Shown here: positions 8,658-26,146 of the stretch, one piece after another
Numbering within the stretch: the stretch's first letter is position 1
Layout of the letters: each line of letters opens with the position of its first letter
Source: Propionicimonas sp.
Lineage (GTDB): Bacteria; Actinomycetota; Actinomycetes; Propionibacteriales; Propionibacteriaceae
DNA: 64,000 bases
Assembly: GCA_013791955.1 (NCBI GenBank)
Contig: VMSW01000005.1
Coordinates: 310,001 to 374,000, forward strand
Direction of reading: 5' to 3'
The notes under the pieces: generated by a model
What the model was told of the DNA's origin: nothing
What the model saw: only the letters and a program-made list of their open reading frames with translations
The model's database searches: none
Translations under genes and position numbers: made by a program

Positions 8658-9896
8658 CTAGCGGCGGACGCGCATGGCCTGGGTATCAAGGCGGACGGTC
8701 GAGTAGCCCGGTTTGCTGACTATGACCACCACCTGGATCCACTCGGTGCGATAGGACTTCTTGAGCTTCAGCTTGTTCGAGGTGACCTTTTTGAGGGGGC
8801 GATCATTCAGCCGCCACTGGTACTTGATGGTCACTCCGGCTGGCCATTGGCCAGGATCTACCCGCAAGGTGCGTCCGACCTTGCTCGTGCCGATTAGCCG
8901 GGGGCGGCGGGTGTTCTCCAGGAGCCCGGGCTCAACCCGGGACGGGTTCGAGCAGACTCTGACAGCGGAGTAGCCGTCTAGGTAGCCGGTGCGGCACAAC
9001 ACCAGTTGATGGCCCAAATCAACTGCGGTGACGTAATAGCGGGGGATGGCTGACCCTGCGGGAGTGTCTCGTTGAACCAGCCGGCCGTCGCGGTACCAGT
9101 CGAGTTGCCACGAAGTTGGCTCCGGGTTCCAGCCACTGACCCATCCTGAACTCAGGAAACCGCCGACGCGCACGCTGCCGCCGAGCCATTGATCGGTCGG
9201 AGTGATCTGATCGGGGTCGATGTAGATGCCGGACTTGAAGTTGTTGGGCGTCTCAAGTGCGTAGCGGCCGATGGTGGTGAAAGTGGCGATTCCGTTGTGG
9301 CACTCGGCAACTGGTGTGATGGTCGGGCAGATTGCCTCGCCGGTGATCGTACGCAGGCCGAAGTCGAAAGACTGACCCCTCTTGATGTTGTTGTAGCCGA
9401 CCAACTGGTGATCGATGGTGGGGGTGAGGTCGTCGGGTAGTGGGCCGAAGTCTTTGATGAAGTTGTACGACAAGTCGATCGAGGCAGTAGCGTTTAGGCC
9501 TTCTAGCCCCGCGACGCTGGCAATGTGGTTGTGGTTCGCGTCGAGGACCGAGAGGTTCAGGCCCGTCAACGGCAGCAGACTGTTGATGTGGTGGTGGCTG
9601 ACGTCGAGGCTGGTGAGCTTCGATTCAGCAAAGAGCTCGAGACCAGCGAGGCTCCGGATCACTCCATCGCGGTCACGGTCGCAGCTGATGCTTGCCAGGT
9701 TGCCGAGATTCGCAGCCGTGAAGTCGACGGGCAGGTGGTCCGCGGTCAAAGCGGCGCTAATGCAGCTCTTCAGAGCTGCATCGGGAATGCTCACTTCGTC
9801 ATCGGCGCGGGCCAGGGTTGCCGGCAGCGCTGAGGCGAGGACGGCGGTGGCCAGCAGGCCGGCGAAAAGGGTGCGCAAGAGGTGGGTGGCGCCCAT
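8658..9896 (-). CDS. Secreted leucine-rich-repeat protein
   Basis: A 412-residue exported protein. The ATG at 9896 gives a clean signal peptide (MGATHLLRTLFAGLLATAVL then ALPATLARA/DD). Residues of about 70-160 hold four to five LRR units (LTSLDVSHHHINSLLPLTGL, LSVLDANHNHIASVAGLEGL, ASIDLSYNFIKDFGPL) of internalin/SDS22 type. The C-terminal 200 residues are beta-rich Ig-like repeats ending KYQWRLNDRPLKK and a basic tail. A GTG at 10049 overlapping the kinase stop (GTGA) is an alternative coupled start adding 51 residues, but it would bury the signal peptide. No LPXTG or membrane anchor is seen. It is the last gene of the pst block and may be a surface or ligand partner of the kinase. Confidence 0.75.
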   Translation of the reverse strand: MGATHLLRTLFAGLLATAVLASALPATLARADDEVSIPDAALKSCISAALTADHLPVDFTAANLGNLASISCDRDRDGVIRSLAGLELFAESKLTSLDVSHHHINSLLPLTGLNLSVLDANHNHIASVAGLEGLNATASIDLSYNFIKDFGPLPDDLTPTIDHQLVGYNNIKRGQSFDFGLRTITGEAICPTITPVAECHNGIATFTTIGRYALETPNNFKSGIYIDPDQITPTDQWLGGSVRVGGFLSSGWVSGWNPEPTSWQLDWYRDGRLVQRDTPAGSAIPRYYVTAVDLGHQLVLCRTGYLDGYSAVRVCSNPSRVEPGLLENTRRPRLIGTSKVGRTLRVDPGQWPAGVTIKYQWRLNDRPLKKVTSNKLKLKKSYRTEWIQVVVIVSKPGYSTVRLDTQAMRVRR

Positions 9897-10045
9897 GCGG
9901 GGGCGCTGCGGAACGATGTTCACGACCGAAATAATGGCAGCTTGGCGAGCGCTGCGGAAGCGCTGTGCGGCGACTTTGGCCGACTGGCCAACAGTGGCAC
10001 TGGCAACCGCTCCAAATGCCGCCCCCAGCGCGGCCGTCCTCGGGC

Positions 10046-11782
10046 TCACGGCGGGCTCGAAATCGACGGTGTTGGGCCGGGTTCGCTCGCGATCGGAGTC
10101 GGGTTCGCCACGGTCAAAAACACCGTGCCGCCGAGGTGAAACAAGACGTCAGCGGCTGGTCGCGACCCGCTGACCACCGCCTCCTCTGGGTAGCCTGCCG
10201 GGCTCGACCCGGTGAACCCAGCTGCACTCAGCGCGGCCCGCGCCTCGGCCACAGTGAGGCCGTCGACGGTAGGAACGATGTTTGAGCCGGAAGCGATGCG
10301 AAGGTCGACTTTGGCGCCGGGGGTGACGGACCGGCCCGCCTGGGGCGTTTGGCCGAGCACGGTGCCCGCAGACTGGGCGGACGGGATCTTGGTGATGACG
10401 CCCACGGCCAGGCCTGCGGCATTGAGGCTGGCCTCGGCCTCGGCCAGCGAGCCACTCAACGCCGGAACCTGCACCGGTACCACCGCCGTTGCGGTGGGCA
10501 GAGCCGAAGGCGGAGCACTCGTTGGCGCAGCGGCAGCCGAGGTTGCGGCTGAGGTCGCGGGACGGGCCGCCGTGCCGGTGGCGGTGAAGGCACTCAACAC
10601 CGCCAACACGGCCACTCCGGCAATGGCGGCCACGGCAATGCCCGCCGCCGAACCGCCGGGCTCATCGGCGACGCCGGAAGCTTGGGTTGGCCGGGACACG
10701 GCCGCCGGGCCCGGGTCAGTTGGGCTGAGGTAATCGAGAGCCGCGCGGCGTCCAGTGGCATTCAGCCGGGTGAGTGGTGGCTGGGTGGCCGAGCCGGCGC
10801 CGCCAGCATCGATCAACCGGGTGGTCGGGTAAGCCGGGCCGGTCGCGGCCTCAGCCAGGCCACCTTCCGGGCGGGCCCAAGCGCTCAGCAGCGCCTCCCG
10901 GAAGGCGGCAGCGTCGGCGAAGCGGTCTTCGGTGCGCTTCGCCATGGCGGTGGTGACCACCTTGTCCAGGCGCCTAGCGGCGGGCTGCAAGGCCGAGGGC
11001 ACCGGCGGCGGTGCCGACAGGTGCGCCCGCAACACAGCCTCCACGCTGCTGCGGGGAAACGGCGGGGCCCCAGTGAGCGCGAAGTAGAGCACCGCCCCGG
11101 CCTGGTAGAGGTCACCGGCAGCATTCACCGGCTGGCCCGAAGCCTGCTCGGGGGAGAGATAGGCGAGATTGCCGACCACTGTGCGCACCTGGCTGGCCTC
11201 ACCACTCAGCAACAAATCGCTGCCGAGCGTGCTGCGTCCGGCCACATCGGCCAAACCGAAGTCGATCAGCCGAACCAGCTCGGGGCGCACCTGGTGAGTG
11301 AGCCAGCCCAGGCCGTGCAGCACGACATTGCCCGGCGAGACATCGCGGTGAGCCAGCCCGACCGCGTGGGCCGCCGCCAGCCCGTCCAACACCCCGGTCA
11401 GGACCGCCACCGACTCGGCCCCGGAAAGCGGTCCAGCGGCCGCGACGTGCTCGGCCAAGGTGGGGCCGGAGGCCAAATCGAGCGCAATCCAGGGCATCAA
11501 CACCTCTCCGGCGTCGTGCAGACCGAAATCGCGTACCGCGGCGATGTTGGGGTGTCGCAGCGTGCCCAACCGTCCCGCCTCGGCCAGGAAGGCCCGCCGG
11601 GAGCTCTCGGTCGCACACAGGTGTGGGTGCAGCACCTTCAGCGCCACCTGCGAATCCGTGGCTGCTGGGTCAAGGTCGTCGGCGCGATAGACCGACGCCG
11701 ATCCACCAACCCCCAGCAGGGCACCGGGCCGATACCGTCCACCAAACAGGGACGCGTCCAGCGGCGGCGCCGGGTGGCTCAT
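10046..11782 (-). CDS. Serine/threonine protein kinase with two PASTA domains
   Basis: A 578-residue PknB-type receptor kinase. The kinase domain covers about residues 14-280: glycine loop LLGVGGSASVYRADD, Lys in VALKVLHPHL, catalytic loop AHRDVSPGNVVL near 146, and DFG within LIDFGLADV near 173. A membrane helix lies around 380-400. A Thr/Ala/Pro linker leads to two extracellular PASTA repeats (about 435-500 and 502-565; VPALSGSLAEAEASLNAAGL and VPTVDGLTVAEARAALSAAG). PASTA domains bind peptidoglycan fragments or lipid II. The start is the ATG overlapping the transglycosylase stop (ATGA), so kinase and wall hydrolase are co-translated. With two PASTA repeats rather than four it is a shorter sensor than PknB. 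Confidence 0.9.
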   Translation of the reverse strand: MSHPAPPLDASLFGGRYRPGALLGVGGSASVYRADDLDPAATDSQVALKVLHPHLCATESSRRAFLAEAGRLGTLRHPNIAAVRDFGLHDAGEVLMPWIALDLASGPTLAEHVAAAGPLSGAESVAVLTGVLDGLAAAHAVGLAHRDVSPGNVVLHGLGWLTHQVRPELVRLIDFGLADVAGRSTLGSDLLLSGEASQVRTVVGNLAYLSPEQASGQPVNAAGDLYQAGAVLYFALTGAPPFPRSSVEAVLRAHLSAPPPVPSALQPAARRLDKVVTTAMAKRTEDRFADAAAFREALLSAWARPEGGLAEAATGPAYPTTRLIDAGGAGSATQPPLTRLNATGRRAALDYLSPTDPGPAAVSRPTQASGVADEPGGSAAGIAVAAIAGVAVLAVLSAFTATGTAARPATSAATSAAAAPTSAPPSALPTATAVVPVQVPALSGSLAEAEASLNAAGLAVGVITKIPSAQSAGTVLGQTPQAGRSVTPGAKVDLRIASGSNIVPTVDGLTVAEARAALSAAGFTGSSPAGYPEEAVVSGSRPAADVLFHLGGTVFLTVANPTPIASEPGPTPSISSPP

Positions 11783-12603
11783 TGGCCGGCCTGGGCCGCA
11801 TAGCGGTTGGCGGCATTGGCAATCTTGTCGACGTAGGCGCTCGAATGGTTGTAGGAGAACACCGCGGCCCGCCAGCCAGCGGCGGTTCGCATCGAGCCGG
11901 ATGCGCACAGATAGCGGGCAGCACTAAGGGCGGCATCATCGATCTGATTCGGGTTGGCGTCGCCGTCGGCGTTCCCGTCCGCCCCCCATTTGCGCCAGGT
12001 GGACGGGATGAACTGCATCGGCCCGACGGCGCGATCCCAGGCTGCATCGCCGTCCCAGCGGCCCTGATCGGTGTCGCGAATGGCGGCCACGCCGTGTCCG
12101 TTCAGCGCCGGGCCACGAATCGCCGGCGCAGTATCACCGGTGGCCAGCAACTGAGCCCCGCCGTGGCTGCCGTGGGCCGATTCGGTCAGCCCGATGGCAG
12201 CCAGCGTGTTCCAGGCCAGACCGCAGCTGGGCTGCTCTGAGCTCACCTGCACCCCGGCGGAGGCATAAGCCAGCAAGGCGCGAAACGGAATGCCGGTGCG
12301 GGTTGAGACGCGCTGGGCCCAGGCTTGATCGATTCGCTTGGTTGGCGCCATCGCCGCTGAACTGGGTCCGACCGAACTGGGCAGGGCACGGGTTGGTTGG
12401 GCCGCAGTCGCTGGTTCTTCGGTGGCCGGCACTGCTACCGGCACCGGGGCCAGCGCTGCGGCCGAAGTGCGCTGGAAGGCCGCGATGGACAACCCGCCAA
12501 TGATCGCGGCCACCACGCCCAACACCACTGCGCTGGCTCCAAGGCTGGTGGCCACGCCCCGCCAGGCTGTCCGGCGTTCTGGGGGAATCAGCTTGGTCAG
12601 CAT
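11779..12603 (-). CDS. Membrane-anchored lytic transglycosylase (MltB-like SLT fold)
   Basis: A 274-residue protein. The N-terminal signal-anchor (about residues 15-45, GASAVVLGVVAAIIGGLSIA) is followed by a Pro/Ala linker and a lysozyme-like domain. The catalytic Glu is E141 in AAIGLTESAHGSHGG. The family signature VGPMQFIPSTWRKWGADGNA lies near 192, and DANPNQIDDAALSAARYLC follows. This enzyme should cleave the glycan strands of peptidoglycan with 1,6-anhydro product formation. It begins five bases after the pstB stop and overlaps the PASTA kinase start, placing wall remodelling in the same transcript as phosphate uptake. Confidence 0.88.
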   Translation of the reverse strand: MLTKLIPPERRTAWRGVATSLGASAVVLGVVAAIIGGLSIAAFQRTSAAALAPVPVAVPATEEPATAAQPTRALPSSVGPSSAAMAPTKRIDQAWAQRVSTRTGIPFRALLAYASAGVQVSSEQPSCGLAWNTLAAIGLTESAHGSHGGAQLLATGDTAPAIRGPALNGHGVAAIRDTDQGRWDGDAAWDRAVGPMQFIPSTWRKWGADGNADGDANPNQIDDAALSAARYLCASGSMRTAAGWRAAVFSYNHSSAYVDKIANAANRYAAQAGQ

Positions 12604-12607
12604 CTGC

Positions 12608-13591
12608 TCACCCGAAGCGGCCGTTGACGTAGTCGAAAGTGCGCGGATCCTGCGGCTCGGTGAACATCGCCTCGGTGTCGCCGTGCTCCACGATTACGCC
12701 CGGCTTGCCCAAGCTGGCCAGGAAGAACGCGCACTGCTGGGAAACCCGATGGGCCTGCTGCATGTTGTGGGTGACGATAACGATGGTCACCTGGTTTCGC
12801 AGCTCCAACATGGTTTCCTCGATCACCCTGGTGGAGGTCGGGTCAAGAGCCGAGCACGGCTCGTCCATCAACAGCACCTTGGGACGAACCGCCAAGGAGC
12901 GGGCGATGCAGAGCCGCTGTTGCTGGCCGCCGGAAAGGCCGCCGCCGGGCTGGCGAAGCCGGTTGCGCACCTCTTTCCACAAGCCAGCCCTGATCAGGCT
13001 GGTCTCAACCAGCTCGTCGCGGCGATCCCGGCTTACCTGCACCCCGGTCAGCTTCAAACCCGCCACGACGTTGTCATAGATCGACATCGCCGGGAACGGG
13101 TTCGGCTTCTGGAAGACCATGCCAATGTGTTTGCGGGCATCGATCAGGCGATGCCGGCGGTCATAGATATCGTCGCCGTCTAGCAGCACTTCGCCAGCTA
13201 GCGAGGCTGAGGGCACCAGCTCGTGCATTCGGTTGAGAATGCGCAGGAAGGTCGACTTGCCACACCCGGACGGCCCGATCAGGGCAGTGATCTGACCGGC
13301 CTGCATATCGAGGCTGACCCGGTCGAGCACCAGATGATCGCCGAACCAGGCCGAGACGTTGCGGGCTTGCAGACCACCCACGCCCGAGTTGCCTTCGGGT
13401 GCCGCCGACTCGGCGGGGTGGGTCGGGTCGGGCAGGGTCTGGACGACCTGAATGGGCTGGGTCTGGGCTGCGGACAGCTCAGCGGGACGGAAGTCGGTTG
13501 GTCGCGGCGGTGGCGGCAGCACCTGGGTGATGTCGCCGCTGGCGCTGCCGAAGCTAGCTGGGCTCTCCATGGTTACCTTCGTGGTTGTCAT
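12608..13591 (-). CDS. pstB: Phosphate ABC transporter ATP-binding protein PstB
   Basis: A 327-residue ATPase energising PstC/PstA. Walker A is [20 protein letters not shown], the Q-loop [17 protein letters not shown] is diagnostic of PstB, the signature is [16 protein letters not shown], and Walker B is [13 protein letters not shown]. Compared with the usual 250-260 residues it carries an extra N-terminal tail of about 75 residues rich in Pro/Gln/Ala, in frame and without a better internal start visible. It is separated from pstC-pstA-pstS by six surface-protein genes, an unusual order. It is likely part of the same PHO-controlled transcript, although intervening hairpins may reduce its level. 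Confidence 0.95.
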
Positions 13592-13594
13592 CGG

Positions 13595-14614
13595 TCACAT
13601 CAGATTTGGCAGCAGGCGGGTCACCTGATCGGCGACCAGCAGGCCGCTGAGCAGGAGCACCGGCATCATGACGATCCAGGTCTTGCGGCCGCCGAAGTGG
13701 CGACGGGCGTACACCGCGGCAGCCTCGGCCACCAGTAGAAACTGCAGGGCGAAGACCAGTGCCCAGGCGGTGCTGGGGTCGATGGCCAGTTCGCGGTCTT
13801 TGGCAGCCAAGGTGGCGTAGGTGGTGAGTCGGGCTCCGTTTGGCTGGACGGCAGAGACCAGCTCCGCGTCCACCCACACCAGCCCGCTGGGCATGAACGG
13901 GCCACCGCGCGCCGTCACCAGCACCAGTCGGCTCTTGGCGGCGGTGATCGCTGCCGGGGTCGGGTCACCGGCGTAGCGAACCCCGATTACCCGATAGATG
14001 TGTTCACCCTGCCCGGTGATGATGCTGATCGTCTCGCCCGGTGGCAGTTCCTGTAGCCGACCGAAGGGGCCGCCGTACGCGGTGGCGCGCCCCGTCAGCA
14101 CGGTCACTCCGGCCTGCCCGGGCAGTGCGGTGTCGCGGCGATGCCCGGGGCCTTTGGCCAGCACTGCTGAGGACGTGCCTTCGGCCACAATCTCATCGAC
14201 TCCCAGGGCCGGGATTTCAATTCGGGCCACCGGCTCGCCGTCGGTGAGCAGGACGTTGTCGAAGTTGCCCTCGCTGACCGGAGCCATGCCAGCAGCGAGC
14301 TGCTCGCCGTATTGCCCACGCAACTGTTGCTGGGAAATCACGTGCTGCAGCGGCCCCAACACGGCCAAGGTGGCCACGAAGCCGAGCAACACGACTGCTG
14401 TCATGCTCATTGCGCCTTTGATCACCAGTTCGCGCGGGCTAAGTGGCTCACGCAGCCGGTTCGGCTTCGGCCGACGGTGCGGTGGCCGTGGTGGGCGGGT
14501 GCCCGCGCTGCGGCGAGCCGAAGGTCGTTCGCCGCTGGTTGCCGCCTGCGCGGGCGGCGGCGCTGCGGTGGCGTCGGCGGAAATCTCGGCCACTGTGCTG
14601 GTCGTCTCGATCAC
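13595..14614 (-). CDS. Sortase-fold membrane protein lacking all catalytic residues (pseudo-sortase)
   Basis: A 339-residue protein. It has a basic, Pro-rich cytoplasmic N-terminus, a membrane helix at about 70-90, a sortase beta-barrel domain (about 125-255) and two C-terminal helices flanking a basic loop (ALVFALQFLLVAEAAAVY, WIVMMPVLLLSGLLVADQV). The domain keeps the class E-like framework: ARIEIPALGVDEIVAEGT, GHRRDTALPGQAGVTVLTG, YGGPFGRLQELPPGETI. However, the TGHR motif that supplies the catalytic His reads TGRA (R176). The TLTTC motif reads LVLVTA (A235 in place of Cys), and the downstream Arg is Gly. It should therefore be unable to transpeptidate. The frame is intact, suggesting a retained non-enzymatic role. 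It is ATGA-coupled to the preceding gene and lies four bases before pstB. Confidence 0.8.
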   Translation of the reverse strand: MIETTSTVAEISADATAAPPPAQAATSGERPSARRSAGTRPPRPPHRRPKPNRLREPLSPRELVIKGAMSMTAVVLLGFVATLAVLGPLQHVISQQQLRGQYGEQLAAGMAPVSEGNFDNVLLTDGEPVARIEIPALGVDEIVAEGTSSAVLAKGPGHRRDTALPGQAGVTVLTGRATAYGGPFGRLQELPPGETISIITGQGEHIYRVIGVRYAGDPTPAAITAAKSRLVLVTARGGPFMPSGLVWVDAELVSAVQPNGARLTTYATLAAKDRELAIDPSTAWALVFALQFLLVAEAAAVYARRHFGGRKTWIVMMPVLLLSGLLVADQVTRLLPNLM

Positions 14615-15387
14615 CCCGACGCCTCCTGATCAGGGCCAGCCTGGGCGGCTCGGCGCAACTGACGGCGGCGGCGTTCGAGCAGCCAGGTGGTCACCATCGC
14701 CGCCAGCAGCAAAACGAACCAGGGCAGGTACCACACCAAAGTGGTGCGGGTTAGCGGCGTCAGCTTGAGCTCGCCCAACGTTGCTGGCGGGGTGAAGGTG
14801 GCGCTGGCGGTCACCACCGTCCACTGCGCTAGGCCGTTGATCCTGGCGGTGACCAGCCGGGTTTCCCCCGCCTTGATCGCCTCCACCGGGAACTCCACCG
14901 GTTGGCCAACAGGCACGCCGAAAGGGCCGGTCAGCCAGAACCTGGCTGACCCGGAGACCTCGCCGGGGTAGACGTTGCGGACGGTGAAGTGCAGGTCAAC
15001 GCTGCCGTCCAGCGGATTGAACGACGGCGAATAGACCCAGGTCAGAGCGCTGACGTAGAGCACCCCGCCGATAGTTTGTTCTTCCCCGGGGCTGACGATG
15101 GTGCTCGGTGAGGGCGAGCCGCCCGGCTGGGAGCCGGTGGGGACTGGCGCGTTGGTGGCGCTGGTCGGGGTAGCAGTAGCGGCGGGCGTGGTCGAACTGC
15201 TCGGCGTGGGGGTGCCACTGGCCGAAGAGGTCGGACTGCTGCTGATTACCTCCACGTTCAGGCCGACGTCGTCCTGTGGAGGGGGTGTGGTGGCGGCCAA
15301 CGTAGGCGCCACGCTGAGTAGCAGGACGACTAACGCGGCGCCAACGACCGCAGGCACTGTGGTGGTGAGGTGGCGGGCGAACCTCAC
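14611..15387 (-). CDS. Exported single-pass protein, partial paralogue of the DUF916 protein
   Basis: 258 residues: signal peptide (VVGAALVVLLLSVAPTLA/AT), a Ser/Thr/Pro linker (residues of about 45-95), one beta-sandwich domain, a C-terminal membrane helix (LVWYLPWFVLLLAAMVTTWL) and a short Arg-rich tail. The domain repeats the pattern of the second half of the DUF916 protein next door. SFNPLDGSVDLHFTVRN parallels GFNPLDGSITVAATVTN, each followed by a GVPVGQ or LGVGQ segment and a WYLPW or WAIPW pre-membrane motif. It thus looks like a duplicated membrane-proximal half without the WxLIP N-domain. ATGA overlaps couple it on both sides. Confidence 0.75.
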   Translation of the reverse strand: MRFARHLTTTVPAVVGAALVVLLLSVAPTLAATTPPPQDDVGLNVEVISSSPTSSASGTPTPSSSTTPAATATPTSATNAPVPTGSQPGGSPSPSTIVSPGEEQTIGGVLYVSALTWVYSPSFNPLDGSVDLHFTVRNVYPGEVSGSARFWLTGPFGVPVGQPVEFPVEAIKAGETRLVTARINGLAQWTVVTASATFTPPATLGELKLTPLTRTTLVWYLPWFVLLLAAMVTTWLLERRRRQLRRAAQAGPDQEASG

Positions 15388-16520
15388 CGGCTGTCCTCCC
15401 CGGCCTGGCTGTCGCCCAGCTCAGTGCCGCCCTGGCGCAGCGGCTCACCGGACTCGGCGGCCTTGGTGGCTCGCTGCTCGTCGAGAACCTCCTGGGCGCG
15501 CTGGAGCGCCTCGGCTTCGGTCTGTTCGGCCCATTCGCGGGCGGCCTGGTCTTCGCGGTCGCGGCGCCAGCGCAGGAAGAACCACCCGGCAACCCCGAGC
15601 ACGACCAGCCCAACCAGCAGCCACGGGATGGCCCACACCAGGGCGTCGCGCTGAATGACCGGCAGCGGGCCGGGGTCGGGGGCGTCCCCGGAGATGCCGC
15701 CCTGCACCAGCATTCGCACCACGCCGTAGCCCACCTGCGGAATGCCGCCAACTTCGAAGGTCACGGTGGAGGTGTTGCCCGGCAAGATCTCCGGTAGCTC
15801 GGTGCGGACGGTCTGGCCAACGCCCAGCCCAAACCAGGTGCTGGTTGAGATGGTGTTGGTGCCCTCCAAGGCCACGTTGCCGCTGTTGGTGACCGTGGCG
15901 GCCACAGTGATCGAGCCGTCCAGCGGGTTGAAACCGGAGTGGTAGGTGCCGGAGAAGCTGCTGATGGTGAGAATCGGCTGCAGGTCGCCAGAGACGCGCA
16001 CGTACATCCGGTTGGCGATTCGGCGCTCCACCCGCACCTGGCCCTCAGTGGTGGCCGAGGCCAACACTCCGGCGGCGTGATCGCCGGGGGTCGCGTCCTT
16101 CGGGATCGTCACCGTAAACGGGACGGTTCGCGATTCGCCAGCTTTGAGGTTGATCTTCAGTTGCGGCGAGCCGTTGAAGCTGACCCAGGAGGCGGCCCCG
16201 GCCTTGTCGGTGGCGCTATCGCGCAGCGAGAAGTCGCCGTTGGCTTCGTTGAAGGCGTCGGCGGCCAGGACGGTCACTTTCAGCGGGGTGGTGCCCGCGT
16301 TGCTCACCCGCACGTGATCGGTGACCTTCTGGCCGGGGTCGGCCTGATAGGTGAACCGGCTGCGTCCGTCGGTCTTGCCCTTCGCATCGACCGGCGAAAT
16401 CGCGATGCCGACGGTGTCCTCAGCCTGGGCGGTGGTGGCGGTCAGCGCCACGCTCCCGACAGCGAGCACGGCGATGGTCAGCAGCGCACCGAGGCGGCGC
16501 AAGACGGGCACAGGTGTCAT
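15384..16520 (-). CDS. DUF916 / WxL-interacting protein (WxLIP) with C-terminal membrane anchor
   Basis: 378 residues from the ATG at 16520 (AAGG eight bases upstream), with a signal peptide (LLTIAVLAVGSVALTATTAQA/ED). Residues of about 35-175 form the DUF916 domain: IAISPVDAKGKTDGRSRFTY, DHVRVSNAGTTPLKVTV, and the signature VTIPKDATPGDHAAGVLAS. A second beta domain follows (about 180-290), then a membrane helix (AIPWLLVGLVVLGVAGWFFL) and a long charged cytoplasmic tail. In Firmicutes, DUF916 proteins bind WxL-domain proteins and peptidoglycan and are encoded beside them. Here the WxL-like protein is the gene immediately upstream. The stop overlaps the next start (ATGA). Confidence 0.85.
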   Translation of the reverse strand: MTPVPVLRRLGALLTIAVLAVGSVALTATTAQAEDTVGIAISPVDAKGKTDGRSRFTYQADPGQKVTDHVRVSNAGTTPLKVTVLAADAFNEANGDFSLRDSATDKAGAASWVSFNGSPQLKINLKAGESRTVPFTVTIPKDATPGDHAAGVLASATTEGQVRVERRIANRMYVRVSGDLQPILTISSFSGTYHSGFNPLDGSITVAATVTNSGNVALEGTNTISTSTWFGLGVGQTVRTELPEILPGNTSTVTFEVGGIPQVGYGVVRMLVQGGISGDAPDPGPLPVIQRDALVWAIPWLLVGLVVLGVAGWFFLRWRRDREDQAAREWAEQTEAEALQRAQEVLDEQRATKAAESGEPLRQGGTELGDSQAGEDSR

Positions 16521-16625
16521 GTCTCTACCTTGGGGTTCTTGAGGCGGTGTTGAGTTGCGCTTGTGGGGCTGCGGAGTGAACAGCGCGCGAACGGCTCTGG
16601 TCGGCGCCTCGCGCGGTAGATGCAG

Positions 16626-16666: not shown

Positions 16667-16687
16667 GTCTACGACTGCTGCTGATCA

Positions 16688-16720: not shown

Positions 16721-16726
16721 CCAAGA

Positions 16727-18430: not shown

Positions 18431-18472
18431 GTCAGAGTCCTTTGCAGGTCGATGGGTGGGTGATGACCGGGA

Positions 18473-19597
18473 TCACGACGCGAGTGCGGCGCGGAAGGGA
18501 GTGGTGTTGGTCGGGGCGAGGAAGCCGTACTTCTTCTTCACCGATCCGGCCTGGCCCGGCAGCGAGCTGGTGATGTTGCCGAGCTTGGTCGCGGCGGTGC
18601 TCACCACATTGGCGAGGTTGGCGTCGTACTTCGCATCGCCGACGGTCACCCGGGCGTTTTCGACCACGATGTAGGTATCGCGGCCCCAGGTGGTGTTGGA
18701 GTAGAAGGCCGGGTTCGGCGCGGTGGCAGTGCCCGAGCCGGTGGTTGGCAGGACGCCAGCGACCGGCGAGCCGATCTTGACCCCGGCGCCGATGCGGTTG
18801 ATGCCCGCACCGGTGTTCTGGGCCACCCACTGAGCAGCGCTCATTGCGGTGACGGCGTTGGCCGGGAAAGGCGTGCCATTGGAAAGCGTGGTCGTGTCGT
18901 GCTCCTGGCCGACCTGAACGCAGCCGCCCTCGGAGACCTCCGGCATGCTCGCCTCGGTGACGCCGATCTTGCTGAGCCAGTCTTTGCGGGTGCCTGAGCC
19001 GCTCTGCGGGACCACCGGCGCGACGGTCACGCCGCCCACCTGGGTGATGGTGCACTCGAACAGGCCCTTGAGGGTGGCCTGGTCGATGTTGTCGAAAGCG
19101 GTGTTGCTGCCGCCGGAGTGGGCGTAAGACAGCGCATCGCGGCCGAACGGGATGTAACGCAGCGCGCCATCGGCGACCTGAGTTGCACCCGAGGACGAGC
19201 GAGCGATATCCACCTGGCCGGTGATTACCACCGCGGCCGGGCTGCCGACCGTGGCGGAGGTGTAAGGCGCGCCGTCGATCGAGCGGCTCAGGGCCTTGAC
19301 GCCGTCACCAGAGCCATTGGGACGGCCGAAACGCGGGCCGCTCGGCTTGGTCTGAATGGAGGTGGTGCCAGTGGCATCGAAGGAACCAATGGCCATGGTG
19401 CCAGCGGTCGAACGCACCGAGGCGCCGGAGACGCTGGTGCCGTTGGCCAGGCCGTTGAGAACGTCCTGCAGGGTGTCGGAGCCGACAACCACGTAGCTCT
19501 GGGACACGGGCTCGGCAAATGCCGTGTTCGCGACGCCAAAGGCGCTAATTGCCATGCCCGCAGCGACGCTGAGAGCGAGGGGTCGGTTAAACTTCAT
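18473..19597 (-). CDS. PstS-like periplasmic-binding-fold protein (secreted)
   Basis: 374 residues; the ATG at 19597 has AGGA seven bases upstream. A signal peptide (LALSVAAGMAISAFGVANTAFA/EP) precedes a PBP type II fold: YVVVGSDTLQDVLNGLANG at the N-terminus, DALSYAHSGG, FDNIDQATLKGLFECTI and PQSGSGTRKDWLSKIG. In PstS the last of these positions (SGSGT) carries ligand contacts. It lacks a lipobox and a membrane helix, so it is either released or held by partners. Ligand unknown; phosphate or a phospho-compound is an inference from the operon. A strong hairpin separates it from the upstream 864-residue relative. Confidence 0.8.
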   Translation of the reverse strand: MKFNRPLALSVAAGMAISAFGVANTAFAEPVSQSYVVVGSDTLQDVLNGLANGTSVSGASVRSTAGTMAIGSFDATGTTSIQTKPSGPRFGRPNGSGDGVKALSRSIDGAPYTSATVGSPAAVVITGQVDIARSSSGATQVADGALRYIPFGRDALSYAHSGGSNTAFDNIDQATLKGLFECTITQVGGVTVAPVVPQSGSGTRKDWLSKIGVTEASMPEVSEGGCVQVGQEHDTTTLSNGTPFPANAVTAMSAAQWVAQNTGAGINRIGAGVKIGSPVAGVLPTTGSGTATAPNPAFYSNTTWGRDTYIVVENARVTVGDAKYDANLANVVSTAATKLGNITSSLPGQAGSVKKKYGFLAPTNTTPFRAALAS

Positions 19598-19647
19598 CAA
19601 TCGATCCTTCCAATCGATGGCTGGGTGGCCGCCGGTGCGGCCATCCC

Positions 19648-19683
19648 TTCGGGCCGGGGGTATTCCAGTACCCTCGGCCCGAA
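19648..19683 (-). terminator. Strong intercistronic hairpin between the two PstS-like genes
   Basis: 15-base arms (TTCGGGCCGAGGGTA and TACCCCCGGCCCGAA on the minus strand, one mismatch) surround a six-base loop. They sit in the 105-base gap downstream of the 864-residue gene. There is no T-run. Probably a partial terminator or mRNA processing signal setting gene dosage in the pst block. Confidence 0.6.
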
Positions 19684-19702
19684 ACTTTTGGGGCGATTCG
19701 GC

Positions 19703-22297
19703 TCATTCCGGCCTCCGCCGGAAGCGCGCCATCGCGGGAATGCCCAGCAATGCGGCTAGGCCGACGATGCCAGTGGCGGGCACTGCGACGCCCAGGATGC
19801 CTAGTGCCGGGTCATCAGGGGTGTTGGCGCCTGAGCGTGGGCCAGCGCTGGTGCCGGTTGCCGACGGATCGCTCGAGCCCGAGGAACCCGAGGCTGCCGG
19901 AGTTTGGGAACCCGATGATCCCCCCGATCCCGACGAACCGGTGGTGGCTGAGGGGCTCGGCGTGGGGCTTGTCGAGGCCGACGGTGCCGACCCGTTCTTG
20001 ATGGTGGCGGCCGCAGTCAAGGCTTGTTTCTGCCAGCTCGCCGGAATCGGGGCGTAGCCCGGCGGGAGTTCACCGTCATTGGTGCCCGGTTTCTGACCGT
20101 CGCCCACTGCGTAGCGAATGAACTCCGAGTAGGCCGCACGCAGCTTCGCATCGGTCTGCTTCGGGTTCAGGGCCGCGTACACCGGAATGGCCAGCGGGTA
20201 GGCGGCCTTGGCTGCCTTGGCCTTAGCTGAGCCCTGCTGAAAGGAGACCACATTGGCCTGCTCGCTGGTGGGGGTCATTGCGGCGGCAGCCGCGAGCAAG
20301 CTGGAATCAGTCGGGGCCACATACTTTCCGGCTGGGTTCCGCAAGAGCGCGGTCGCGGTCTGGTAGACGTGGGTGGCCGAAGTAGTGCTGAGCGCCATCA
20401 CCTTCCTACTGCCGACCAGCTGGCGCTGCTCCTTGCTGAACTTCGGCGGACGTGCGGTGGCGTCCCAGCCGCCTAGGACCATCCCGTCGCCGCGAAGCAC
20501 CCGATAGGCCCCATCCGAAAAGCCGCTGGTGTAGGGCCGGTAGGTGACCAGGTTGATCGGCCCGCTGCCGTTGCTGGGGTCGCTTTCGGTGGTGTCAGCC
20601 TTCTCCGACGGGTCGGCCTTGGGGAAGTCATCGCGGGGGAGTTGGAGGGGTGTCGTGGGAATCGGGCACTTCGCGCTCACTTTGGCGTTGGTCGAGTAGC
20701 ACGGGTTGACCGTCATCCCCCACTTGTCGGGCTTGCCAGCCAGCCAAGCTTTCGCCTCCGCGTCAGCCAGGATGTATTCCCACACCCGGGTGGCGAGGTC
20801 GGAGCGGCCGAGCGGACTGAGGGCATCGGCCACCGAGGGGCCAATGATGATCTGGGCCGACCACTCTGGATCGTTGATCGCTTGAAAATCTGGATCGTAG
20901 ACGAGCGTCCGGGGATTCTTGCCGGGATCCTTGATGCTTTGGTAGCCCAGGTGCGACTTGCTGGCCCCACCCGGCAGGGAGTCGAGGTAAGAGGAGGTGA
21001 GCAGTTTCGCCAGCAGTCGCGGTGTCAGCTTCATGCCGGTCAGCGGAAGGCCAGTGCGCGCCCGCTGCGCCGGGGTGGCATTGATCGGGTGCGGCTGGGC
21101 GTCGATGGCAAACGAGATCGTCACGCCGCCCAGGGCCATCGGCGCGTAGACCAGGGGGTCGGTCTTGGCGTCGATCAGGCTCTTGTCCAATGGCTTTGAG
21201 GTGAGCGCCAAGGCACTTGGCCTGGTATCGGACGCGGTGACTAGGGCGTCCGACTCAGGGATCTGCGACAGCACGAAGGGTGCGCCGTCCGTGCCCTGGC
21301 ACACCACCGGCTGCCACGAGCCGATGGCTTCGGCGATCAGTTCACTACCGGCCAGCGAGCGCTCCGCAGCCCCGATCGGGCAGCGGGCTCCCAGCGGCTT
21401 GAAGTCGAGTTTCACCGCTACGTGGTGCTTCCAGGCATCCCACCAGACGCCGGGGTTGTTAATCAGGCTTGAGCCGGAGTCGCCAGTGCCCCGCGGAATG
21501 ATCACCAGCCAGCACGACTGCCCGACAGTAGCTCCGCCGGCTCCGGTGATTGAGGTGCCGCAACCCAGCCCGGGCGATTGCATCGCGGTTTGGAGTTCGA
21601 AAGGCACGGAGCCGGAGCCGTCAGCTCCCGATGGTGCCCACTTGACCTCATTGGTTGTCAGCGCAGTGAAATAGCGGTTCTTATCGAAGTAGATCAGCTC
21701 CGCCTTGAGGCGAACGTTCCCGGCGGAGTCGGTTGTGACGTTGGTCAGGACCTTGTCCTCGGCGGCTTTCTCCTCATCGACGATGCCCTCGGCGTTGTAG
21801 GCCACGAAGGGGATGGCGGTGTAGTTGTAGCCGCCCAAGTCAGCGGAATACTTCGCGTCCCGCGGGTCGACGTTTTCCGGCATGGTGTTGCCGTCACGGG
21901 TGGCACCCCAGCTGCCGGTGCCCCCGTACTGGCAGGTTCGCCGATCCGGACGAGTGCCGTTGCTGCCAGGTTCGTCCCCCCAGCATTGGGCGATCTGGAC
22001 GAATTTCTCTCCGCCCACGGTGCCGCCGGGCTGGGCGGACTGCTTGCCGCCGGTCCAGCTCACCGTGACTCCCTGAGCGATGACGTCCTTGGTCTGGGAT
22101 ACGGTCACCGCGAGATCCGGAAACGGAGCATTGGCGGCGTCGCTGTCGTAGTCGACGGCTTTGATCGTCTTGGCTGAACCGCTGGATTCCGCCTGTGCCG
22201 GCGCGGTGCCGAGGACGGCACTGCTCCAGGCCAGGGCGCAGGCGCAGCCAACCGCTAGCGCGAGCAGTCGGCGGGTCGAAATCAGTTCAGTCGCCAT
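19703..22297 (-). CDS. Large membrane-anchored PstS-like binding protein
   Basis: 864 residues from the ATG at 22297, with GTGAGGG just upstream and an 11-base overlap with pstS. A signal peptide (ALAVGCACALAWSSAVLGTA then PAQA/ES) leads to a beta-rich N-domain (about 40-250, with Cys pairs in QIAQCWGDEPG and RRTCQYGGTG). The following region has PstS-like sequence: YAPMALGGVTISFAIDA, MKLTPRLLAKLLTSSYLDSL and NPRTLVYDPDFQAINDP. A C-terminal Ser/Gly/Pro/Thr linker of about 70 residues precedes a membrane helix (LGVAVPATGIVGLAALLGIP) and an Arg-rich tail. It is twice PstS length, so the N-domain probably adds a second function. Ligand unknown. Confidence 0.75.
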   Translation of the reverse strand: MATELISTRRLLALAVGCACALAWSSAVLGTAPAQAESSGSAKTIKAVDYDSDAANAPFPDLAVTVSQTKDVIAQGVTVSWTGGKQSAQPGGTVGGEKFVQIAQCWGDEPGSNGTRPDRRTCQYGGTGSWGATRDGNTMPENVDPRDAKYSADLGGYNYTAIPFVAYNAEGIVDEEKAAEDKVLTNVTTDSAGNVRLKAELIYFDKNRYFTALTTNEVKWAPSGADGSGSVPFELQTAMQSPGLGCGTSITGAGGATVGQSCWLVIIPRGTGDSGSSLINNPGVWWDAWKHHVAVKLDFKPLGARCPIGAAERSLAGSELIAEAIGSWQPVVCQGTDGAPFVLSQIPESDALVTASDTRPSALALTSKPLDKSLIDAKTDPLVYAPMALGGVTISFAIDAQPHPINATPAQRARTGLPLTGMKLTPRLLAKLLTSSYLDSLPGGASKSHLGYQSIKDPGKNPRTLVYDPDFQAINDPEWSAQIIIGPSVADALSPLGRSDLATRVWEYILADAEAKAWLAGKPDKWGMTVNPCYSTNAKVSAKCPIPTTPLQLPRDDFPKADPSEKADTTESDPSNGSGPINLVTYRPYTSGFSDGAYRVLRGDGMVLGGWDATARPPKFSKEQRQLVGSRKVMALSTTSATHVYQTATALLRNPAGKYVAPTDSSLLAAAAAMTPTSEQANVVSFQQGSAKAKAAKAAYPLAIPVYAALNPKQTDAKLRAAYSEFIRYAVGDGQKPGTNDGELPPGYAPIPASWQKQALTAAATIKNGSAPSASTSPTPSPSATTGSSGSGGSSGSQTPAASGSSGSSDPSATGTSAGPRSGANTPDDPALGILGVAVPATGIVGLAALLGIPAMARFRRRPE

Positions 22298-23891
22298 GAC
22301 CCTCACCGGCCTTCAAACGTTGCGAGACCAGGGGCGGCACGACCACCGAGGCGACCAACAGCAACGCGGCGGCCACCATCAGCCATTGGCTGGTGCCCAT
22401 GCCAGGGTCAGGCAGCGTGAACGCGCTGGCTACTGCACCGCCAGCGCTGGTGCCGTTGGCTGACAAGACGTTGCCGTTCTCATCGGTCACCGTCCCGGTG
22501 CCAGTTCCAGTGCCAGTGTCGGAGCCAGTGGTTCCGCCGGTACCGGTGGTGGTGCCGGTGCCAGTGGCGCCACCGGAGTTGTTGTTGGCATTGCCGCCGG
22601 TGCCGCCGCCAGTGACCGGGGTGTCCTGGGTGGCCCCGCCGGTGCCGGTGCTGCACTGGCTGGTGCCCTTCTTGTCGCACGCCGCTGGGTAGGGCGCAGT
22701 GAGCGCGAGCTGGTTCTTCGACGGCGAATCGCCAGCTTTGAAGGTTGGGTTGTTGCACTTGGCGGTGTCAACGCCCTCGTTGCCAGCGCCGGGGATCTTT
22801 TTGATCTGCTCCGAGCCAGCCATTACCAGGTTCATTGGTAGCGGCGAATAGCCCAGGGTGTCGGCCTGCTGCTGGCCTTCGCAAAGGACGTAGCGGGCGA
22901 AGGCCCCCAAGGTATTGCCCTTGTTGGTGTTGAAGATGCCAGCCACCTCGGTCGGCACGATCATGTAGGAGTAGCTCGACAGGGGGTAGGCCCGCTTGTC
23001 GGCGCTGTTGTAAACCCCGTCGAGAATCTGGGTCAGGTAGTCGGCTGAGGACTTGTTGTCGTTGATCTCGGCCTTCATCATCGCCACCGCCACCGAGGAG
23101 GCTGTCGGTTCGACGTAGTAGCCGGACTTGTTCAGCACCTTCGCTACCGGGAAGCCGGCCTTCTTGGCGTAGGAGTACTCGACGTAGGTGATCGCACCCT
23201 CGCCGTAGTTCTGCGAGACGTACCCGGCTACGCCATCGGATCCCGCCTGGCTCTTGGAGTTGCCGAAGCTGCGGAACTGGGACGTCATCCCCTTCTTCCA
23301 CAGCGAGGGGTACTGCTTGCTCATCCACAAGGTGAACTGGGCCGAGGTGCCCGAGCCGTCGGAGCGGATCACCGGCACGATTCGCTTGTCGGGCATCGCC
23401 AGGGCCGGGTTGTCAGTCTTGATCGCCGGGTCGTTCCAGTTGCTGATGGCGCCGGTGAAGATCTTGGTGATGGTGTCCCCAGATAGGCGCAGGTTCGTCA
23501 CCCTTTTGCCGTTGATCTTGAGGTGGTACATGAAGCTGGTGCCACCAGCCACGATCGGCATGTAGGCGTAACCACGGCTGGGCTTCTCCGGTGCCGAGCC
23601 GTCCTCAGGCTTGGCCTGGAAGGGAATCTCGGAGATCGCGAAGTCGACGGTGCCGTCGATGAAATCGCGGCGTCCCGAAGTTGAGCCAAGGCCGGTGTAG
23701 TTGATCGTCATCTGGTAGTTCCTGAACACATTGGTGCGCCATTGCTCCAGCGCGTTCTTGGACCAGGTGGAACCGGTGCCGGTGATCGGATAGGGGGTTT
23801 CGGCTCGGGCTGCGGTGCTGGCCAGTGGCGCGGCGAGCAGCAGGGTGAGGCTGGCCATTAGGGCGGCGCGAATGATGGTCTTAGGACGCAT
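22287..23891 (-). CDS. pstS: Phosphate-binding protein PstS with C-terminal membrane anchor
   Basis: 534 residues. A signal peptide (RAALMASLTLLLAAPLAST then AARA/ET) is followed by the PstS fold: ITGTGSTWSKNALEQWRTNV, INYTGLGSTSGRRDFIDGTV, the phosphate-contacting IRSDGSGTSAQFT, and FTGAISNWNDPAIK. From about residue 415 to 490 there is a low-complexity Thr/Gly linker (repeated TGTG and GGT units). A membrane helix follows (SQWLMVAAALLLVASVVVPP) with a short cytoplasmic tail. Instead of a lipoprotein lipobox, this PstS is therefore tethered on a long flexible stalk. It overlaps pstA by 11 bases. Confidence 0.93.
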   Translation of the reverse strand: MRPKTIIRAALMASLTLLLAAPLASTAARAETPYPITGTGSTWSKNALEQWRTNVFRNYQMTINYTGLGSTSGRRDFIDGTVDFAISEIPFQAKPEDGSAPEKPSRGYAYMPIVAGGTSFMYHLKINGKRVTNLRLSGDTITKIFTGAISNWNDPAIKTDNPALAMPDKRIVPVIRSDGSGTSAQFTLWMSKQYPSLWKKGMTSQFRSFGNSKSQAGSDGVAGYVSQNYGEGAITYVEYSYAKKAGFPVAKVLNKSGYYVEPTASSVAVAMMKAEINDNKSSADYLTQILDGVYNSADKRAYPLSSYSYMIVPTEVAGIFNTNKGNTLGAFARYVLCEGQQQADTLGYSPLPMNLVMAGSEQIKKIPGAGNEGVDTAKCNNPTFKAGDSPSKNQLALTAPYPAACDKKGTSQCSTGTGGATQDTPVTGGGTGGNANNNSGGATGTGTTTGTGGTTGSDTGTGTGTGTVTDENGNVLSANGTSAGGAVASAFTLPDPGMGTSQWLMVAAALLLVASVVVPPLVSQRLKAGEGHGD

Positions 23892-25119
23892 GGGGGCTCC
23901 CTTCGAGGGTAGGGACGGTGGCCGAACGCGTGGTGAAGCGAAGCTCGTCGCGTCTGGACGCGGCCAGGGTGGCTCGGCGTTGGCGCGGGGAAAGGTCTCC
24001 GGGGGCTCGCCCGCCCAAGGCGCGGGCGATCATGAACAGGGTCAGCACCAGCACCAGCAGCACCGCTGCGGCGCCGAAGCCGCGGGCGACCATGGTCGGC
24101 TCCGGGGACCGGACGAAATCGAAGACCTGCAGGGGCAGGGAGACCATCGGGCCGGCTAGGGGGTTGATGTTCATGGCTGCGGTGATGCCCGAGGTCAGCA
24201 GCACCGGGCTGGTTTCGCCGATACCGCGGGCGGTGCCGAGAATCACCGAGGTCACCAGGCCCGAACGCGCGGTCGGCAGCACGACGTGCCACACCGTCCG
24301 CCACCGCGAGGAGCCCAGGCCGTAGGAGGCTTCGCGCAGATTGGCCGGCACCAGCCGTAGCACCACATCGGCAGAGCGAATGATGATCGGCAGCATCATC
24401 ACCGTGATGGCGATGCCGGCCGCCAGCCCGGAGCGCTCGTGGGTGAGCCCCTGAATGAGGGCGGCATAGACGAACAACCCCGCCACGATGGACGGCAGCG
24501 CGGTCATGGCGTCCGAGACCGTCCGGACGAACCTGGCGAAGCGCCCGCCGACCTCGTTGAGGAAGACCGCGGTACCGATGCCGAGCGGCACCGCGATCGC
24601 CAAGGCGATCGAAATCTGGATCAGCGTGCCGACGATGGCGTGGCCGATGCCGCCGTTGGTGAGCGGGTCAAGTGGCCCGCTGAACTCCATGGTTTGGGTG
24701 AAGAAGTTGAGGTTGACCAGGGCTTCGGCGCCGCGGGTGAGGGTGTAAACCACGATGAAGATCAGCGAGCCGAACAGCAACACGCCAGCGCTGGCGAACA
24801 GCACCGTGGCTAGCCGGTCTTTCACTTCCTGCAGATCAGCCTCCATTGAGACCAGCAGCACGTACAGGCCCAGAAAGGCGGCGAAGGCCACCACTACCCA
24901 GCCCAAGGCTCCCGAGAGTGGGGCGAACCAGCCAAAAAGCAGGGTGGCCAGCGCAATCGCGGCCGCACCACCGCCGAGCAGGTCGAAGCGTTGGGCGGCG
25001 GTGAATCCGCGGACGTCGCGGCGCGGCCCGGCGGCACGCTCGCCCGCGTCTGGGCAAATGGTCTGTGGCTGATCGGAATCAGGGTCGGTGATCAGCAACT
25101 CAGTCAGATCAGTCGTCAC
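23881..25119 (-). CDS. pstA: Phosphate ABC transporter permease PstA
   Basis: A 412-residue permease. The C-terminal 290 residues are a typical PstA: YTLTRGAEALVNLNFFTQTM, GGIGHAIVGTLIQISIALAI, PSIVAGLFVYAALIQG, and the EAA-like loop SYGLGSSRWRTVWHVVLP that contacts PstB. The first 125 residues are an extension with a polar start and two or three additional helices (AAAIALATLLFGWFAPLSG, GWVVVAFAAFLGLYVLLVSM), longer than most PstA proteins. It overlaps pstC by 11 bases and pstS by 11 bases, indicating coupled translation. Confidence 0.93.
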   Translation of the reverse strand: MTTDLTELLITDPDSDQPQTICPDAGERAAGPRRDVRGFTAAQRFDLLGGGAAAIALATLLFGWFAPLSGALGWVVVAFAAFLGLYVLLVSMEADLQEVKDRLATVLFASAGVLLFGSLIFIVVYTLTRGAEALVNLNFFTQTMEFSGPLDPLTNGGIGHAIVGTLIQISIALAIAVPLGIGTAVFLNEVGGRFARFVRTVSDAMTALPSIVAGLFVYAALIQGLTHERSGLAAGIAITVMMLPIIIRSADVVLRLVPANLREASYGLGSSRWRTVWHVVLPTARSGLVTSVILGTARGIGETSPVLLTSGITAAMNINPLAGPMVSLPLQVFDFVRSPEPTMVARGFGAAAVLLVLVLTLFMIARALGGRAPGDLSPRQRRATLAASRRDELRFTTRSATVPTLEGSPHAS

Positions 25120-26146
25120 TTTCGGCTCCTGATCTCGATTTAGCGACGATCGTGGAGGCGGTGAAGTTGATCACCAAGGTGAGCGCGAACAGCACCAGGC
25201 CGGCCGCCATCAACGCCGAAAGGCCGAATTCGCTGGCCTCGCCGTAGCGCAGCGCGATCAGGGCTGAGACTGAGTTCGTCCCGGTCTTGAGCACCTGCCA
25301 GTTGATGGTGAAGATCGGCGAAATGATCATGTAGACCGCGATGGTCTCGCCCAGCGCCCGGCCCAGGCCGAGCATGGTGCCGCCGATCATTCCGCCCTTA
25401 CCGAAGGGCAGCACGACCGAGGTGATCATTCCCCAGCGGGTGGCACCCAGGGCGAAGGCCCCTTCGCGCTCACCGATCGGGGCGCGGGCGAACGCCTCCC
25501 GCATGATCGAGGTCTGGGTCGGCACCACCATCAAGCCGACCACGATGCCGGCGATGAACGCTGAGGAGGTGAAGGCGCTGGCCTCGGTGAACGGACGGCC
25601 CTCGGCATCAGTGACAGCGAAGATCGGCAACCAGCCGAACCAGATCGAGATCCACCTGGCAGCCGGAATGATCGCGCCTTGGAGGTAGTAGACCCCCCAC
25701 AGGCCGAACACGATGCTGGGCACCGCTGCCATCAGATCAACCAAGGAGACCAGCAGCGCACGCAAGCGGCCCTGCACCACTTCAGAGAGCAGCAACGCGG
25801 TGCCGATCGAAAGCGGCACGCTCACGATCAGGGCGATCAGGGCGATGGTGACGGTGCCGAACAGGATGGCCGCCACCCCGAAGGTGTTGGTTTCCGGCGA
25901 CCACTCCTGAATCGCCAGGAACGCCCAGCCGACCGTCCCCAGGGCATTGGCGGCTCGCAGCGATAGGAACAGGCCCACCGCCAGCATGATCGCGACAGTG
26001 ATGATCCCGGCACCGAAGGCGGCTCGGCGGAAGGTCAGATCTCCGAACGATTCGCGACTGAGTATTCGGCGAGGACGGACTGCGATGGTCGCCGGTTCTA
26101 CCTCAATTGGCTGGACGGGGTTGGCGAGGATCGTGGAGTTCGTCAC
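25109..26146 (-). CDS. pstC: Phosphate ABC transporter permease PstC
   Basis: A 345-residue permease beginning with GTG and preceded by GGGGGTGG. Six membrane helices follow a polar N-tail of about 45 residues. Recognisable PstC segments are GVAAILFGTVTIALIALIVS, VPLSIGTALLLSEVVQGRLR, LMAAVPSIVFGLWGVYYLQG, the EAA loop AFALGATRWGMITSVVLPFG and LGRALGETIAVYMIISP. It is the first gene of the pst block, lying downstream of PHO-box-like repeats. Confidence 0.94.
   Translation of the reverse strand: MTNSTILANPVQPIEVEPATIAVRPRRILSRESFGDLTFRRAAFGAGIITVAIMLAVGLFLSLRAANALGTVGWAFLAIQEWSPETNTFGVAAILFGTVTIALIALIVSVPLSIGTALLLSEVVQGRLRALLVSLVDLMAAVPSIVFGLWGVYYLQGAIIPAARWISIWFGWLPIFAVTDAEGRPFTEASAFTSSAFIAGIVVGLMVVPTQTSIMREAFARAPIGEREGAFALGATRWGMITSVVLPFGKGGMIGGTMLGLGRALGETIAVYMIISPIFTINWQVLKTGTNSVSALIALRYGEASEFGLSALMAAGLVLFALTLVINFTASTIVAKSRSGAESDD

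Follow-up and report, generated by a model that had tools for sequence, protein, structure and literature searches.

The window analysed here is a stretch of 64,000 nucleotides from Propionicimonas sp. (contig VMSW01000005.1, positions 310,001 to 374,000), in which positions 8658-26146 hold a run of thirteen genes, all on the minus strand, that encodes what looks like a second, separately evolving Pst importer, here called the variant Pst. The order of the genes is pstC, pstA, pstS, large PstS-like, small PstS-like, Ig/WxL-like, DUF916, DUF916-like, sortase-fold, pstB, lytic transglycosylase, PASTA kinase and LRR. An earlier note had read this run as a pst operon split by a surface-display module; its gene order was borne out, Pfam and NCBIfam confirmed PstC, PstA, PstS, PstB, the WxLIP/DUF916 protein, the sortase fold, the transglycosylase and the PASTA kinase, and the junctions are indeed mostly overlaps or spacers of a few bases. 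Wider gaps are found between the large and small PstS-like genes (approx. 100 bases), between the small PstS-like and Ig genes (approx. 40 bases) and before the DUF916 gene (approx. 200 bases if its start is at 16520). In the following, G designates genomes (G000 being the window's own) and L designates fetched loci. The features are:

26234..26285, minus strand: PHO-box-like repeats GTTCACC / GTTCATT / GTTCACC upstream of pstC, the last two 22 bases apart
25109..26146, minus strand: PstC permease of the variant Pst (TIGR02138, 228.5 bits, cut-off 196.45; variant side of the PstC tree)
23881..25119, minus strand: PstA permease of the variant Pst (TIGR00974, 229.8 bits, cut-off 193.45; variant side of the PstA tree)
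22287..23891, minus strand: PstS without lipobox, with a Gly/Thr-rich linker of approx. 130 residues and a C-terminal membrane helix (TIGR00975, 223.9 bits, cut-off 205; RSDGSGT loop; tether by hydropathy)
19703..22306, minus strand: large PstS-like protein with an unmatched N-terminal region, a degenerate PstS-like domain, a Ser/Pro-rich linker and a C-terminal membrane helix (profile-profile match to PstS, 1pc3, hydropathy)
18473..19600, minus strand: small PstS-like secreted protein with an SGSGTR loop (profile match to 1twy, 1.3e-5; loop; hydropathy)
16727..18430, minus strand: Ig-domain protein with a WxL-like C-terminal domain (Big_3_5, 3.1e-12; alignment of six sequences)
15384..16520, minus strand: DUF916/WxLIP protein with a peptidoglycan-binding-type domain, a second domain and a C-terminal helix (WxLIP_PGBD, PF06030, 5.9e-12, 46.1 bits, cut-off 27.3)
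14611..15387, minus strand: paralogue of the second half of the DUF916 protein, with a membrane helix (29% over 129 amino acids, 6e-10)
13595..14614, minus strand: predicted pseudo-sortase with one N-terminal and two C-terminal membrane helices (PF04203, 7e-14; PDB profile and fold; catalytic columns; helices by hydropathy)
12608..13591, minus strand: PstB ATPase (TIGR00972, 338.8 bits, just below the cut-off of 343.2; variant side of the PstB tree)
11779..12603, minus strand: lytic transglycosylase-like protein, optional (SLT_2, 4.2e-9)
10046..11782, minus strand: PASTA Ser/Thr kinase, optional (Pkinase, 1.5e-24; PASTA, 7.3e-15)
8658..10049, minus strand: LRR-like secreted protein, optional (LRR_4, 0.0014, below cut-off)

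With PstC, PstA and PstS above the curated cut-offs and PstB near its own, the locus belongs to the Pst importer family. It is not the only such locus in its genome, as a search with TIGR00974 found another PstA elsewhere in all 16 module-bearing genomes searched; this other PstA outscored the variant PstA in 15 of them and scored lower in G030. In the window's own genome the other PstA (C2:291225-292040, approx. 18 kb before the window) is part of a compact pstSCAB operon (L140:6412-10390) that lies approx. 16-20 kb ahead of the window; its PHO-box-like pair has a spacing of 11 bases, and its PstS has a lipobox. Six canonical operons were fetched (from G000, G001, G007, G227, G266 and G323), and all are plain pstSCAB with four genes in all. 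In unrooted trees drawn from 26 loci and including only these six canonical operons, the variant proteins fell on one side for PstA (19 variant and 6 canonical rows; support 100/98), PstC (18 and 6; 99/98), PstS (19 and 4, the rows of L142 and L145 having been dropped at the score limit; 100/100) and PstB (17 and 6; 97/93). Weak rows in these trees are the long branches of L145 and L085 and one PstB row of 62 residues with a very long branch. Because a further Pst is present elsewhere and the variant and canonical Pst proteins group apart, we rejected the reading of an ordinary pst operon split by an insertion; the variant Pst looks like a second system with a separate evolutionary history rather than the product of a chance insertion.

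The earlier note had also proposed a check of gene neighbourhoods across Actinobacteria for the same make-up, and this make-up was found to recur far beyond the window, with changing gene order. Within the genus, the large PstS-like protein, used as query, was present in 10 of 30 genomes (the window's and nine others); the nine other neighbourhoods were fetched and pst genes were seen in all, two of them (G009 and G017) lying on broken contigs. In a sample of 296 genomes from the phylum, for which a profile of the large protein was used and only the best three candidates per genome were scored, so that copies may have been missed, at least seven genomes including the window's own had full-length matches (>390 bits) and at least three (G030, G045 and G323) had divergent matches of 47-60 bits; in all ten of these counted genomes the pseudo-sortase and pst genes adjoin the large protein. 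At least 47 of the 296 genomes had some match at E <=0.001, of which these ten were counted; the remaining matches (approx. 43 bits or less, mostly to the C-terminal lobe only) were taken as ordinary PstS uninspected, except in G298, where a further divergent large protein, a sortase-like protein and a small PstS-like protein share a 4.5 kb contig (L144) that is too short to show pst genes. Profiles were built from the genus loci and L002-L004, so scores at those loci are not independent, and phylum matches outside the genus are independent. A corresponding search with the sortase-like protein matched at least 192 of the 296 genomes among the matches listed (best seven candidates per genome scored, so copies may again be missed), and by score these are mostly true sortases. 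A scan of named genomes added three loci, in Actinomycetales, Acidimicrobiaceae and unclassified actinobacterial metagenome assemblies, and no match to the large protein was found in a plasmid collection.

We tabulated 23 loci, which were selected for holding the large protein and several of which are cut by contig ends. The pseudo-sortase is present at 22 of them, L004 being the exception, with a contig that does not extend beyond the small PstS-like gene. That small protein was found at 21 loci (weak in L003, where it lies kilobases away, and in L082 and L144). Other genes are less constant: the DUF916 protein was found at 10 loci (weak in G117), the transglycosylase at 10, a strong PASTA-kinase match at 4 and some match to the LRR-like protein at 6. 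The displacement of pstB from pstA, which had been taken as the mark of the insertion, holds for most but not all of the 19 loci that show pstB, as this gene follows the pseudo-sortase in 14 and precedes pstC in two (L003 and L080) but adjoins pstA in three (L081, L082 and L085). Partners that stay constant while the gene order shifts suggest a functional unit, and its core is PstSCAB with the large PstS-like protein and the pseudo-sortase; the DUF916 protein and transglycosylase, which had been proposed as parts of the system, and the kinase are optional.

The sortase-like protein of the operon has the expected fold, as its best profile match is 5uus (SrtF) and its soluble part models as a sortase (predicted local distance difference test, pLDDT, 61.5; best Foldseek match 4d70, sortase D, E 9.3e-8, template modelling score, TM, 0.53). 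The assignment of a sortase fold was thus confirmed by PF04203 and Foldseek, but the catalytic residues are absent. Among 22 distinct sequences linked to the module, the catalytic Cys is found in none, the His in one (L107, which also has an Arg one column off) and the Arg in one (L053); in the window protein, all three are replaced. Pst genes are visible beside 20 of these 22; the other two, counted as linked, are on contigs that show none, namely L042 (G017) and L107, the copy from G298 (L144) that keeps the His. Among homologues not known to be linked, His is found in 23 of the 24 rows that extend to its column, with Asp in L069, and Cys in 15 of 17, with the other two having it one or two columns on; surroundings were seen for seven of these homologues (L083, L084 and L086-L090), and no pst permeases were found there. 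Overall, these alignments indicate that the operon's protein is a pseudo-sortase, predicted to be catalytically dead. Compared to sortases, it shares the fold and the residues around the GPGH...PGQ segment, but linked copies are without the catalytic Cys and, one copy each apart, without His and Arg, and they have extra C-terminal helices.

As the catalytic residues are absent, anchoring of the neighbouring proteins by the operon's own sortase was rejected. The window's own genome encodes another sortase (C1:9645-10034) that keeps His, Cys and Arg and could in principle anchor. An LPXTG-like motif was found in the last 80 residues of only one of the 16 large proteins examined, that of the window (VPATG), and in none of the 14 variant PstS examined; these 30 proteins, and not every copy, form the sample for all statements on tethers below.

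The earlier note had recognized two further PstS-like proteins, and for both a relation to PstS was supported by profile comparison. For the large one, a single-sequence search matched PstS in the C-terminal part only (TIGR00975, residues 651-769, 3.4e-10), while profile-profile comparison matched residues 308-756 to a PstS profile (97.2%); the best solved match of the C-terminal lobe is 1pc3, M. tuberculosis PstS1 (4.6e-7). No Pfam match was found for the protein and no match of any kind for its N-terminal region. Compared to PstS1, the likeness lies in the C-terminal lobe, and the large protein adds the unmatched N-terminal region and does not have the phosphate loop, the aligned stretch being without GSGT. 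A C-terminal helix was found in all 16 large proteins examined, as was an LPxG(Y/F) stretch close to where the PstS-like domain ends; this stretch is a possible ligand of the pseudo-sortase.

With a pseudo-enzyme and a pseudo-binding protein as constant parts and a PASTA kinase in the same operon, the module might be a sensor rather than an importer, gauging extracellular phosphate or the state of the wall and signalling via PstB or the kinase. We consider this very improbable, since the permeases and PstB stay in the module and so few of the loci have a strong kinase match; the same count leaves unsupported the idea that the kinase monitors the wall, and kinase and LRR protein were placed outside the core because they are too rare.

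Returning to the system as a Pst importer, its PstS differs from canonical PstS in its mode of attachment. In all 14 variant PstS examined, hydropathy predicts a hydrophobic C-terminal helix after a linker of 89-171 residues, and all 14 are without a lipobox; 13 have no Cys at residues 15-45, and the Cys at residue 25 of the L080 protein lies ahead of the hydrophobic stretch and not in a lipobox. Among the six canonical PstS, on the other hand, five have a lipobox and none has a C-terminal helix. The window PstS keeps the RSDGSGT phosphate loop, in alignment with the solved PstS chains 35yt and 2z22; the loop residues aligned here are presumably those that contact phosphate in E. coli PstS. 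A study of other PstS names residues within the same loop (PMC12421899).

The small PstS-like protein of the window has no Pfam or NCBIfam match on its own, and profile-profile comparison with PstS gave 29.9% only. We assigned it as PstS-like because its profile matched phosphate-binding proteins in the PDB (1twy, 1.3e-5) and because its homologues in L076 and L079 match PBP_like_2. It keeps SGSGTR or close forms of the loop, preceded by Gln in all nine aligned rows, and no membrane helix was found by hydropathy. In two loci it is part of a fusion with two or three Ig-like domains of the Big_3_5 family (L076:1138-3132 and L079:5002-7170). In L034 (G004), the large and small PstS-like proteins form one frame of 1242 residues (L034:9001-12729) and PstB is present as two overlapping frames (L034:3248-4103), which may be an error or real.

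These loops bear on the question of the ligand. The variant Pst could import another phosphorus compound, such as phosphate esters, phosphonates or wall-polymer fragments, with the degenerate large protein and the small protein, in which Arg is replaced by Gln, binding the larger ligand. The presence of another Pst in all 16 genomes searched is consistent with this, as are the loss of GSGT in the large protein, the invariant Gln of the small one and the QSEGSGA loop of PstS in L003 and L080; a SAR11 PstS in which that Arg is Pro is described, in the part of the study consulted, as having an enlarged cavity (PMC12421899). Conversely, four of eight aligned variant PstS (window, L078, L081 and L082) have RSDGSG followed by T or S and two more (L037 and L085) differ by one or two residues, and no phosphatase was recognized among the module genes scanned, those of the window and ten others, a result qualified by a sub-cut-off match in L080 to the N-terminal (fn3-like) domain of purple acid phosphatases. 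We regard import of another compound as possible though unlikely.

Upstream of the window pstC, three GTTCA repeats are found at -139, -120 and -98. For S. coelicolor pstS, PMC7866108 describes a PHO box made of two direct repeat units of 11 nucleotides. Of 19 variant operons, 5 have upstream GTTCA pairs at a distance of 22 bases (none on the reverse strand); 1.15 Mb of strands from 30 loci hold five such pairs in all, and four of the five operons are part of this set. We also used a PHO-box-like score for GTTCAYC pairs at 11 or 22 bases (maximum 14), a measure that was checked on canonical pstS regions, of which five of six reach 13. The window scores 13 of 14, at the 22-base step. A score of at least 13 was reached by 7 of 19 variant upstream regions as compared to 0 of 19 reversed regions and 0.45% of 4000 random background windows, although this count is partly after the fact because the 22-base step was first noticed in the same loci; lowering the threshold to 12 gave 10 forward and 2 reversed regions, out of 19 each. 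Several of the loci are close relatives, the background was drawn from the same loci, and starts are first-in-frame guesses. In L030 and L079 the PHO-box-like site lies downstream of the assigned start, so that either the start is wrong or the site is false. Overall, these data suggest that the variant operon has direct repeats of the Pho-regulon type as a candidate control site.

Taken together, we interpret the module as a second Pst importer of Actinomycetota that would be controlled by phosphate starvation and have its capture side built for reach, a reading for which we consider the balance between right and wrong to be about even. PstS, together with the small PstS-like protein, would catch phosphate out in the wall, which PstS could explore on its tether. 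Around PstCA, the large protein and the pseudo-sortase may make up a membrane-bound collar or dock; this would keep hold of the tethered proteins and offer them to the permease, and the pseudo-sortase would reuse the old substrate groove to bind peptides without catalysis. The outer part would be fixed to peptidoglycan by the DUF916 and WxL-like proteins, and these proteins, the Ig proteins and the small protein (Ig-fused in two lineages) would extend capture outward; lineages with the transglycosylase may use it to widen the wall locally. We further propose, more tentatively and as less likely than not, an importer subtype in which a dead sortase and a binding protein without a ligand site make a permanent extracellular dock on the permease. 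A single transporter could then be supplied, through the full depth of the wall, by several binding proteins that are either tethered or fixed to the wall.

The phosphate-capture idea of the earlier note is kept by this reading in so far as PHO-box-like repeats, a retained PstS loop, long linkers and C-terminal helices were found, but the large protein is without a phosphate loop, and part of the system may accordingly serve another ligand. This loss is one of several observations that weigh against the reading. The large protein was not found in 20 of 30 genus genomes, which means that the module is not essential; no PHO-box-like repeats were found at the distant loci L003, L077, L078, L080, L081, L082 and L085 (scores 9-11) or at the genus loci L032 (9) and L038 (11); and the structure model of the large protein (pLDDT 32) was unusable, leaving its contact with PstCA or the pseudo-sortase without structural support.

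Compared to the PstSCAB importer of E. coli and Streptomyces, the likeness comprises the four subunits, the phosphate loop of PstS and the PHO-box-like promoter repeats, while the differences are a second paralogous set, the linker and C-terminal helix on PstS, two more PstS-like proteins, the pseudo-sortase and the frequent displacement of pstB. To our knowledge, accounts of phosphate capture in single-membrane bacteria mostly concern PstS with a lipid anchor. A conserved second Pst with linker-tethered binding proteins is a concrete and testable alternative to this, and a pseudo-sortase family with fixed partners lets the role of the sortase fold without catalysis be asked directly. In agreement with the earlier note, which knew of no described system of this make-up, no description of the system or of pseudo-sortases of this kind was found in the open-access literature, subscription papers and preprints being outside this search; a review that covers how Streptomyces and related Actinobacteria transport phosphate does not contain the word sortase.

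The optional surface proteins resemble WxL/WxLIP clusters. Nearly all reports of WxL proteins come from Lactobacillales and Bacillales (PMC10599100), and the clusters are said in PMC9772566 to always hold a small WxL protein, a large WxL protein and DUF916. In the Ig protein, which had been named WxL-like, the first W-x-L is kept in all six aligned sequences but the second reads L-T-L in all six (its Trp replaced by Leu), and no Pfam WxL match was found up to an E limit of 10 (the program drops most above 0.1); filing the protein as WxL was rejected on these two grounds. The DUF916 protein, with a PGBD domain over the cut-off and a helix at residues 291-319 by hydropathy, is of the WxLIP type, although the host-binding domain DUF3324 was absent among the nine Pfam families listed at E <=0.1, and a second domain, of other sequence, is present; the DUF916-like paralogue aligns to residues 183-308 of this protein. 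Likeness to the described clusters thus lies in the DUF916 domain, its C-terminal helix and a D-x-R...GW-x-L motif, here one residue longer from R to W than in the descriptions consulted (PMC10599100 and PMC9772566, both in part), and the differences are the degenerate second W-x-L, the missing Pfam WxL match, the lack of a recognized small WxL protein and the joining to a transporter.

The Ig, WxL-like, DUF916, fn3 and LRR proteins vary between lineages, and of the 296 genomes, 29 have the DUF916 family and 4 have it beside the module. Both observations would fit an adhesin or biofilm display operon whose co-transcription with a duplicated pst set is incidental, starvation being a condition in which both help. 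We hold this to be quite improbable, as the two PstS-related proteins and the pseudo-sortase, rather than display proteins, recur most steadily next to the transport genes, and as all four Pst proteins fall on separate sides of their trees.

Some minor observations concern the same loci. Weak DUF916 matches lie inside frames of 962-988 residues in L011, L013 and L015 (G014, G008 and G012), and no pst genes were found in the surroundings of L011 (fetched as L040). In L035:10439-13926 (G011), the Ig/WxL-like gene is apparently present twice in tandem, though the second match may rest on Ig domains alone. A defence system was considered for the window and rejected, as the PADLOC matches of the kinase look like generic kinase models, the GTPase gave one weak match, and the large PstS-like protein, the small PstS-like protein and the pseudo-sortase gave none. 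This GTPase-like gene (window 7536-8657, plus strand) faces the end of the operon, and a homologue is located beside the module, on varying sides, in five other genomes of the genus.

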